Positions 7,268 to 10,748 of a stretch of DNA of 64,000 nucleotides are shown here, piece by piece. The stretch comes from Malassezia japonica (Eukaryota > Basidiomycota > Malasseziomycetes > Malasseziales > Malasseziaceae). The position numbers and the translations under genes are program-made. The DNA is taken from the NCBI RefSeq assembly GCF_029542785.1, contig NC_083375.1, positions 620,001 through 684,000 of the forward strand, given 5' to 3'. Under the pieces are notes generated by a model. The model ran no database searches, was not told the DNA's origin, and was given only the letters and a program-made list of their open reading frames with translations. Within the stretch, counting starts at the first letter, position 1. Every line of letters begins with the position of its first letter.

Positions 7268-10200
7268 ATGGCCGTCGCGTACGAGTACCTGTCGTGCGCG
7301 GTGAACCGCACATCGCACGTCGCGGAATGGGTGCGTCTACGTAGTGAGGATGCGGAAGAGGACACGTACGTCTTTGGCGTGCACAAAGGATTCGTGTCGG
7401 CCGCCGTGCCGGGCACCCGCCCGGCGTCGAGGTGGGCGACGTCGTGCCGCGACGCTGTGTACGTGCTCAAAGCGGCGCCTGCGCCGGACGCGAATCCCGC
7501 GCTGGTGCTCGGCTCGTACAGCGGCGACCTCGAGGTGTGGCGTGCCGTCGCAGAGAGTGGCGCGTTTTCGTGGCGCTGCGACGTCGCGGTGCAGAACGCG
7601 CATGGCGCCTCGATTACGGCGCTCGGCGTGGTGCGCGATGCGATGTCGGTCGCGCGCAGTGCGTCCGTCTTTGCGACAGGAAGCACCGACAACACCCTCA
7701 AGGTCTGGGAACTGACGCGTGGCGACACGCTGCAGGCCGACGTCGTGCAGGAGATTTCGCTGGGGGGGCGCTACGCGTTGGACATTGCCCTGGCCCACCT
7801 CCCGAACGGCAACGAGCCACTGACGACGCTCATGGCCGTCGCACTCACCGACAAGAAAGTGCACCTATACGTGCGCGAGGCCGGCGGCGAGTTTACGCTG
7901 CGCCTCCAGCTCGAAGGGCACGAAGACTGGGTACGTGCGCTGGACTTTTGCGTTGCGCCGAGCGTGCGCGGCGGCGCGTACGACGTGCACCTCGCGTCTG
8001 CGGCGCAGGACAACAACGTACGCGTGTGGCGCATCCAGGCCGAGTCAGTGGCCGGCGTCGAGCGGGCGCCGGCGGACGCCTTTGAGCGCATGGCCGCCGA
8101 GCTGTTGCCCGACGACGACCAGGGCATCAATACCAAGAAAAATTGGCTGTCATTTGCGCATGCGTCGCAGCGGTGGGCCGTGTCGCTGGACGCTATGCTA
8201 GTCGGCCACGATGCATGGGTCACCGGCGTCCGCTGGTTCCCCTCGCTGAGCGCGGATGCGCAGCGTGCGGTGCTGCTCTCGAGCTCGGTGGACAATAGCA
8301 TGATTCTCTGGTCGCCCCAGGAGCCGGGCGCGACCGAGTGGCCGCTTCTTTCCGACGAGGCGGCGTCGCATGCGCTCTGGCTGCCGGTGCACCGCCTCGG
8401 CGACGTCGGCAGTCTCAGCGGCGGCTTCCTCGGCGCGACATGGCAGCCGACGACGAGCCGGCCGTCGGTACTCACGTACGACCGTCAAGGCGCGGCGCAC
8501 CTGTGGGCGCTCGCTGACGGACAGCAGCGTTTCCTGCCGGGCGCCACGCTGTCGGGCCACGCCGGCCCGGCGCGCGGCCTCGCATGGGAGCCGTACGGCG
8601 ACTACTTCCTCTCGACAGGGTACGTACCCCGACTGACGCAGCGCGGACCGCACCACACGCTTGCACGGCACCTACTGCCCTCCGGGCGGAGACGAGGACG
8701 CGGTTGCCGAGCGCTCGTGGCACGAGATGGCGCGACCGCAGACGCACGGCTACGACCTCGTCCAGGTCGCGTGGCTCGACCGCGTGTCGTTTGTGAGCGC
8801 GGCGGATGAAAAGGTGCTGCGCGTGTTTGGCGCCTCGCGGGGATTTGTCGAAAATGCGCTCAGCTTGCGCATGGTGCAGACGCACGCACGAGAGACGTAC
8901 GTCCTCGCGCTCGACATTGCAGATGCGCGGCAGTGGCGGGATACCGCGCCGCTCGACGTGCCGCTCGACGCGGCGATGGCCGAGCGGCCTGCCGCACTCG
9001 CCGTGCTCGTGTTTAGCGATCTGCTGCGTGGCACCGAGCTCGGCGGCACGCCGCTGTGCGCGCTCCAGGACCTCGAGCACTTTCTGCAGCAGGTGTACAC
9101 CAAGGCATGGGGCATCGCCGTGCGCCAGAACCGCCTCTTGGCCGACATTACCGTGTACCTCGTGCCGGGTGCGTCGGCTTCCCATGAAGGGCAGCAGGGG
9201 GCCAAGCGCTGGGCGGCGGCGTACGGCCAGCAGGTCGACGGCCTCTTTGCGGTCGATGGTGCCTATGCAGTGGACCGCCGTGTGCTTTCTGCCATTGCGC
9301 CGCTCGAGCCGCGCTCCATCGCGTGTGGGCCCCAAGGCGAGGCACACGAAGCGGCGTCGTCGGCTTTCCCCCGCGCGCCGGTCGTCGCGCTGGGCGGCAC
9401 GTTTGACCACCTGCACATTGGCCACAAGCTCCTGCTGAGCATTGCAGCGCTCTGCACGACGCAGCGCCTGATTATCGGTGTGACGAGCACCGAGCTGCTG
9501 ACCAAGAAGAAGCACCGTGCGCACGTCGAGCCGATCGCGCCGCGTCTCGAGGCGGTGCGCCGCTTTGTGCGTGCGTTCCGCACGGCGCTCGGCGAGATTA
9601 CGCTCGACGTCGTGCCGATCAGCGACGTGTGTGGCCCGGCCGGCACAGACGCCGAGCTTGGCCTGCTGGTCGTGACCGAAGAGACGGCCAAGGGCGCGGA
9701 TATCATTGCCGAGAAGCGGAAAGAGAACGGCGTGCCTGCGACGGACGTGCACATCGCGTCGCTTGTTGACGCTGCCGACGGCTCCGACAAGGTCGGCAGC
9801 ACGGCGATTCGTGGCTGGCTCGAGGAGCAAGGCATTGCACCGGGCGATGAGTTTGTGCTCGACGTCGACCTCGCGCGTGCCAAGCAGCAAGGGCCGACGG
9901 CGGCCGGCGTCCCCCCGCTGGGCCTGTCGAACCGCGCCGTGGCCCAAGAGGCGGCCGATGCGCCGCCGGACTATGCCCCGTTCACCGCCCCGCCGAACCC
10001 CGAGCAGCTGCAGACGCAGACGCTCTGGCCCGAGCTCGAGAAGCTGTACGGCCACGGCTACGAGCTGCTGAGCGTCGCTGCCGACGTCGCGACGCGCCTC
10101 ATTGCGAGCACTTGCAAGGCGACGTCGCCGGCCCATGCGGTTGTGCGCCTGTTTGACGGCGCGCAGCGCTACAAGCCCCTGCCGGATGTGCTCGAGGGCC

Positions 10201-10748
10201 ACGCGCTGTCGGTGACGCGCGTACGTTTTTCGCCCGACGGCCAGTTCCTCCTGACCGCCTCGCGCGACCGGTCGTGGTGGCTCTTTCGGCGCGACGGGCC
10301 GGCGTTTGTGCCGTTTGCCGGCGAACGCGCGCATGCCCGTATCGTATGGGACTGTGCGTGGAGCCCGGATGAAGCGCTCTTTGCGACCGCGTCGCGCGAC
10401 AAGACGGTCAAGGTATGGCGCCTGCTGCCCGGCGACGCTCCCTACGCGCTCCTCGCCACGCTCAAGCTCGACGAGGCGGCCGTCGCGGTCGCCGTCGGCC
10501 CCGACGCGAAGCTTGCCGTCGGCCTCGAGAGCGGTGCCGTGCTGCTCTATGTCGCCGACGCGGCGCGCACCGCGTGGTCGCTGCACACGGCGCTGTCCCA
10601 CCACCACACCGGATCCGTGCACGATCTCGCGTTCCGGCCGCGTGGCGCGTGGACGGATGCCTACAACGACGTGCCCTACAGTCTGCTATCGGCCGGAGAC
10701 GACGGGTGTGTCCGCCTGATCGACTGGCGCCCTAGCGGCCATACCTAG
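7268..10748 (+). CDS. ELP2: Elongator subunit 2 with an embedded phosphopantetheine adenylyltransferase
   Basis: A predicted 1,152-residue protein in two exons with a 22-nt intron (8620-8641). Residues 1 to about 525 are the first ELP2 WD40 propeller, with [31 protein letters not shown] and [17 protein letters not shown]. Residues about 528-860 are a whole fungal CAB4/CoaD-type enzyme, which makes dephospho-CoA from 4'-phosphopantetheine and ATP. It has the nucleotidyltransferase motif [12 protein letters not shown] near 702 and GSTAIR near 836. The ELP2 chain then resumes with [28 protein letters not shown] and a second propeller with [11 protein letters not shown]. Both joins are in frame within one uninterrupted exon. 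ELP2 scaffolds Elongator, which modifies wobble uridines. The 3' end overlaps RBX1 on the other strand. Confidence 0.93.
8871..9880 (+). other. CAB4-type phosphopantetheine adenylyltransferase domain inserted in ELP2
   Basis: This segment of the ELP2 exon encodes about 335 residues. It includes the N-terminal extension typical of fungal CAB4 ([16 protein letters not shown], then [10 protein letters not shown]) and the catalytic domain from [10 protein letters not shown] through [22 protein letters not shown] and GSTAIR. The HIGH box and the Ser-Thr-x-x-Arg motif are intact, so activity is plausible. There is no stop codon and no convincing splice site at either edge. The boundaries are approximate: they are where ELP2 similarity stops and restarts. 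Confidence 0.88.

Follow-up and report, generated by a model that had tools for sequence, protein, structure and literature searches.

The window analyzed here is a stretch of 64,000 nucleotides (nt) of Malassezia japonica DNA, positions 620,001–684,000 of the forward strand of contig NC_083375.1, and all positions below are those of the window. It contains a gene in which the Elongator subunit ELP2 is interrupted by a sequence similar to CAB4, the phosphopantetheine adenylyltransferase (PPAT) of coenzyme A (CoA) synthesis. Translation confirms the gene limits (7268–10748) and the chain length of 1,152 residues given by an earlier, sequence-only reading. The calculated mass of the chain is 124 kDa. 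That reading described a single exon; the last part of propeller 1, the insert and propeller 2 do share one frame in exon 2, but the gene has two exons. The features were placed with hidden Markov models (HMMs), alignments and motif readings and are as follows.

7268–10748, + strand: ELP2-CAB4 gene, two exons, spliced product of 1,152 residues without internal stop
7268..8619, + strand: exon 1, covering most of propeller 1 (ELP2 residues 1–450 plus two bases of codon 451; translation and match to 8avg_B, 8ptx_B and 5m2n_A)
8620..8641, + strand: intron of 22 nt, GTACGTACCCCGACTGACGCAG, of the form GTACGT...CTGAC-G-CAG; joining across it restores the ELP2 reading
8642..10748, + strand: exon 2, one open frame that completes propeller 1 and continues through the CAB4 insert, the linker and propeller 2 to the stop
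8868..9377, + strand: N-terminal part of CAB4, weakly conserved, residues 527–696 (CAB4 HMM start at 527, alignment to stand-alone CAB4)
9378..9893, + strand: PPAT catalytic domain and C-terminal tail, residues 697–868 (CAB4 HMM match ends at residue 852, base 9845)
9393..9428, + strand: HIGH-type nucleotidyltransferase motif, HxGH (motif reading)
9795..9812, + strand: GSTAIR, an STxxR-type motif (motif reading)
9909..9938, + strand: return into ELP2; here the inter-propeller linker has its conserved end, which corresponds in alignments to VPVLGLSNKA of yeast Elp2 and to PPLGLSN[RK] in basidiomycete ELP2 without the fusion
9912..10748, + strand: ELP2 propeller 2 and stop codon (HMM match 875–1149, solved Elp2)

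The intron is one of 1784 exact genomic sites of the 22-nt pattern GTACGT-N7-CTNAC-N-CAG. The frame of exon 2 has no in-frame stop over positions 8643–10745, and the CAB4 section has no stop codon of its own before ELP2 resumes. One of the five other frames of the insert, on the minus strand, is equally free of stops and the GC content is 62%, thus the open frame alone is weak evidence. The argument for a fusion comes instead from homology and from the conservation seen in other species.

Custom HMMs of the unfused ELP2 halves and of stand-alone CAB4 match the window protein at positions 1–521 (ELP2-N), 527–852 (CAB4) and 875–1149 (ELP2-C). In a search against solved chains, Elp2 matches flank the insert on both sides: mouse Elp123 chain 8avg_B aligns with residues 108–524 and 896–1116, and yeast Elp2 5m2n_A with residues 128–519 and 864–1089. 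The protein therefore displays two WD40 propellers with Elp2-specific sequence, and the CAB4 section occupies the linker between them, where the sequence-only reading had placed it. The predicted model of a fused relative can be superposed on yeast Elp2 at 2.8 Å, with 735 of the 772 yeast residues covered. Fold searches with this full model gave propeller proteins in the top 50 rows, thus the fold of the PPAT domain is outside this comparison. Both parts look intact and the chain of the relative is predicted to fold, so that the two folds would be compatible, as had been suggested.

The insert exceeds the cut-off of NCBIfam NF001985 (pantetheine-phosphate adenylyltransferase) narrowly (106.4 bits versus 104) and that of Pfam PF01467 (29.8 versus 21 bits). 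Solved PPAT 3do8_A matches with an E-value of 5.6e-11, and other nucleotidyltransferases at 0.099 or worse. HxGH and STxxR are the catalytic motifs of PPAT, and both are intact at the positions listed above, in agreement with the earlier reading. The insert also keeps 25 of the 27 columns that are invariant across 30 stand-alone CAB4 sequences; the initiator methionine is one of the two that are lost.

The fusion is not confined to M. japonica. The search for relatives used region 450–1000 and scored the 8000 best candidates; 566 proteins were found, and 66 of the best 120 of these (P0001–P0066) are fusions, the CAB4 HMM having no match in the remaining 54. The order ELP2-N, CAB4, ELP2-C is found in 66 of 67 rows, the window included; P0005 is without its N-terminus. 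Four of 76 further ELP2-matching proteins (P0136, P0201, P0202 and P0203) also match CAB4 and are incomplete fusions. The fused genera among the matches listed are Malassezia (8 named species or strains), Violaceomyces, Tilletiaria, Microstroma, Exobasidium, Sympodiomycopsis, Parajaminaea, Meira, Sporisorium, Kalmanozyma, Pseudozyma, Ustilago, Jaminaea, Testicularia and Ceraceosorus. All 15, with one species of each looked up, belong to the Ustilaginomycotina (Malasseziomycetes, Ustilaginomycetes or Exobasidiomycetes), and every listed ELP2 named as a member of this subphylum other than Tilletia is fused. No named ELP2 of the Moniliellomycetes was present among the matches listed. The HxGH motif is found in 66 of 66 database rows and STxxR in 64, with SSxxR in P0059 and P0066. 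A degenerate PPAT was considered for Exobasidium, Meira and Jaminaea (P0028, P0036 and P0060), which have no precomputed PF01467, and was dropped; the motifs are present, thus these look like profile misses. P0066 is filed under the fern Adiantum nelumboides, and its fungal ELP2-CAB4 fusion probably represents contamination of that assembly. The earlier reading had proposed a search of other Malassezia and Ustilaginomycotina, and separately sequenced species do carry the same fusion. Its view of the fusion as real stands, but its framing was too local, since the fusion is widespread in the subphylum, with unfused Tilletia as a natural comparison.

The ELP2 proteins of Tilletia controversa, T. 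horrida, T. walkeri and T. maclaganii are unfused, with chain lengths of 893–935 residues and 70 residues from ARPQ to LGLSN. This distance is 58–69, mostly 66 or 67, in the 31 of 54 unfused listed rows where both patterns are readable. T. horrida has a stand-alone CAB4 of 364 residues (P0121), the only protein named as Ustilaginomycotina among 80 matches of a stand-alone CAB4 search that was limited to relatives sharing short words and similar length and in which many matches are unnamed. The database label of P0121, "Elongator subunit elp2", appears to have been transferred from fused relatives.

In an ELP2 tree of 50 rows without the insert, 31 fused rows are grouped (support 91/85) with the four Tilletia rows as sister. 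In a CAB4 tree of 42 rows, the fused CAB4 sequences and that of T. horrida form one group (87/87) beside agaric CAB4. A horizontal origin of the insert was therefore dropped, there being no sign of transfer. The stand-alone metagenome PPAT P0125, which has a long branch, is of unsure placement in this tree. Approximately unbiased (AU) tests did not reject Tilletia within the Exobasidiomycetes, its placement in the NCBI taxonomy (p = 0.394), or Tilletia grouped with Tilletiaria (p = 0.387). A concatenated tree of 23 rows leans to Tilletia inside the Exobasidiomycetes (71/84), with fused monophyly not rejected (p = 0.142). The ELP2, CAB4 and concatenated trees are thus compatible with a single fusion and either no later change or one re-splitting in Tilletia, whose arrangement may be ancestral or re-split.

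Window and M. yamatoensis proteins show 70% identity in PPAT, 67% in propeller 2, 61% in propeller 1 and 33% in the N-terminal part of CAB4; residues 534–690 show 28%–37% identity to eight other Malassezia rows. The median ratio of PPAT to ELP2 distances is 0.77 in fused proteins (136 pairs, 17 rows) and 0.80 in unfused ones (15 pairs from 6 rows, of which three combine sequences of two species in one genus). From these ratios, the PPAT within ELP2 appears neither decayed nor clearly accelerated.

A separate CAB4, which the earlier reading had named among its refuting conditions, was not found in the genome. A six-frame, exon-by-exon search with a 331-residue query matched only the query itself and one stretch of E-value 0.015, although a heavily split copy could escape such a search. 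For that stretch, C1:342270, Pfam gives no match at E 0.001, and it was rejected as a second PPAT. The other PF01467 matches of the genome were also rejected: the closest solved structure to C3:539929 is choline-phosphate cytidylyltransferase (CCT) and that to C1:1172628 is nicotinamide mononucleotide adenylyltransferase (NMNAT). ELP1, ELP3, PanK and dephospho-CoA kinase genes are all present. The last of these (Cab5, CoaE family) is a separate locus at C3:821k, and CoaE family matches occur only at C3.

The best explanation, with a probability of about 0.88, is that of one bifunctional protein: a complete CAB4 would have been inserted once, in an ancestor within the Ustilaginomycotina, into the inter-propeller linker of ELP2. 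The single frame, the conserved order, the retention of motifs and the failure to find a second copy are read directly from the sequences; enzymatic activity of the insert, its assembly into Elongator and any effect we only infer. Several points weigh against this explanation. Its support is sequence comparison and a predicted model, as distinct from RNA or protein. The PPAT cut-off is passed narrowly (106.4 versus 104), and the stand-alone T. horrida CAB4, at 88.6, does not reach it. Conservation is poor in the N-terminal part of CAB4. Close to where CAB4 starts, 19 of 66 rows have a methionine, RMVQTHA of the window among them, and a shorter CAB4-ELP2C product could begin there. Lastly, the model is of the relative's chain rather than the window's and comes without a position-error matrix, so that the position of the enzyme in it is tentative.

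Under the bifunctional-protein explanation, the two propellers would continue to serve as the Elp2 scaffold, and a separate enzyme domain would bulge out between them. Every Elp2 built into Elongator should bring CoA-synthesis activity along, because the fusion appears to be the only PPAT of the cell. The likeliest practical effect would be that PPAT and Elp2 are necessarily made one to one and kept in the same place. Subunits are present in two copies each, according to a passage of PMC10018365, thus each fused Elongator should carry two PPAT domains.

The fusion may be real but neutral, a frozen accident joining two single-copy, needed genes with no link between CoA and Elongator, and this is probably the better account of its fixation. 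The rate of PPAT relative to ELP2 is about equal in fused and unfused proteins, Tilletia lives with two separate proteins, and the substrate of Elongator differs from the PPAT product. Retention of the fusion in every listed non-Tilletia ELP2 of the subphylum speaks against neutrality, though a frozen accident predicts this also and nothing is decisive.

PPAT forms dephospho-CoA from phosphopantetheine and ATP; this is phosphorylated by Cab5 and then acetylated, which leaves PPAT two or more steps from acetyl-CoA. The coupling of CoA supply to tRNA modification suggested by the sequence-only reading is therefore only a possibility, and the present data fit coupling and neutral fixation alike. 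Direct channelling of CoA to Elp3 is unlikely, because dephospho-CoA still needs Cab5, which is encoded elsewhere, and acetylation. A broader functional coupling, in which the tether connects the supply or sensing of CoA with Elp3 (a user of acetyl-CoA in U34 modification) or brings Elongator to the CoA-synthesising complex, is doubtful. Consistent with it are the long retention of the fusion, hydrolysis of acetyl-CoA by Elp3 on tRNA binding (part of PMC11096365), the clamping of Elp3 by Elp2 in the catalytic lobe of Elongator (part of PMC10018365), and the binding of yeast Cab4 to the Cab3 scaffold of a CoA-synthesising complex of ~330 kDa (part of PMC8494682). However, coupling would require Cab5 and an acetyl-CoA synthase nearby, and Tilletia is an exception. 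Yeast Acc1, which co-purifies with Elongator, is a contaminant according to its authors and was dropped as an Elongator partner. Neutral fixation with forced co-dosage is ranked first and regulatory coupling second. A more speculative proposal, also held to be improbable, is that the Elongator of smuts and Malassezia unites tRNA modification and CoA synthesis in one machine, where PPAT on Elp2 would tie dephospho-CoA output or feedback to Elongator abundance or activity, with Tilletia ancestral or re-split.

Very improbable is a CAB4 gene nested in an intron whose removal would yield plain ELP2. GTACGT, with which typical introns of this genome begin, does occur at position 8897. However, no stop ends CAB4 before ELP2 resumes, and none of the 12 frame-preserving GT-AG pairs (donors 8825–8959, acceptors 9840–9924) has a GTRNG donor with a YAG acceptor. 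The insert is in frame in gene models or open frames of many species, and a 1-kb intron would be unusual where genome counts, which cover the 22-nt and 25-nt forms, give 1784 and 50 pattern sites. Practically negligible is a chimera of assembly or annotation, in favor of which nothing was found: the junction order is identical across many separately sequenced species and metagenome contigs.

In open-licence PubMed Central no paper was found that joins PPAT with Elp2, or Elongator with CAB4 and fusion, in line with the earlier reading, which knew of no description. Elongator, COASY and Elp3 together gave one editorial with the topics in separate paragraphs, and the five papers found for Elp2 and Ustilago maydis mention Elp2 once each. 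Further literature listings, judged by titles and the first lines of abstracts, likewise contained nothing on the fusion. CAB1–CAB5 are essential in yeast (a passage of PMC8494682). In three classes of a fungal subphylum, a single gene appears to encode both a yeast-essential step of CoA synthesis and one subunit of the main complex for wobble-uridine modification. Deletion of ELP2 in these fungi should remove PPAT too, and the phenotypes would therefore be confounded with loss of CoA synthesis. The fusion, the Tilletia exception and the apparent single copy make a coupling of acetyl-CoA chemistry and CoA supply on Elongator directly testable.

Introns in this genome look ultra-short and of near-fixed length. 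A reversed-pattern control of the 22-nt pattern gives 0 sites. In the window 17 of 26 scanned intron candidates are exactly 22 nt, where a Markov sequence gives an expectation of 1.2 candidates. Examples are 8620–8641 (+) and, on the minus strand, 10766–10745, 10874–10853, 10967–10946 and 11023–11002. For M. restricta a passage of PMC9241646 gives a median of 30 nt. Downstream lies an RBX1-like gene at 10732–11143 (−) (zf-rbx1, E 1.8e-25); removal of four introns of exactly 22 nt gives an intact product ending QKYGR. In antisense orientation its last intron covers the stop codon of ELP2-CAB4, and the final 13 bases of its coding sequence overlap the end of that of ELP2. The upstream open frame at 4992–7085 (+) has no Pfam match at E 0.001 and reads like a leucine-rich-repeat protein.

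Compared with known systems, the insert shares its motifs and 25 of 27 invariant columns with stand-alone Cab4 and eukaryotic PPAT (T. horrida P0121, solved PPAT 3do8); unlike stand-alone Cab4 it has neither its own stop nor the conserved first methionine and is continuous with ELP2 at either end. The mammalian bifunctional CoA synthase COASY likewise has PPAT within a multi-domain chain and corresponds to Cab4 plus Cab5 (in part of PMC8494682). However, the partner in the window protein is ELP2 and not dephospho-CoA kinase, the CoaE domain being absent among the best 25 of 30 matched Pfam families. Like Elp2 of yeast (4xfv, 8asw_B) and human (8ptx_B), the window protein has two propellers and the linker end PxLGLSN[RK]. 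Where only about 14 residues (471 to 485) separate the two aligned pieces in yeast Elp2, the window protein has about 340, which form the putative PPAT, a clear example of a two-propeller scaffold accepting a whole enzyme.
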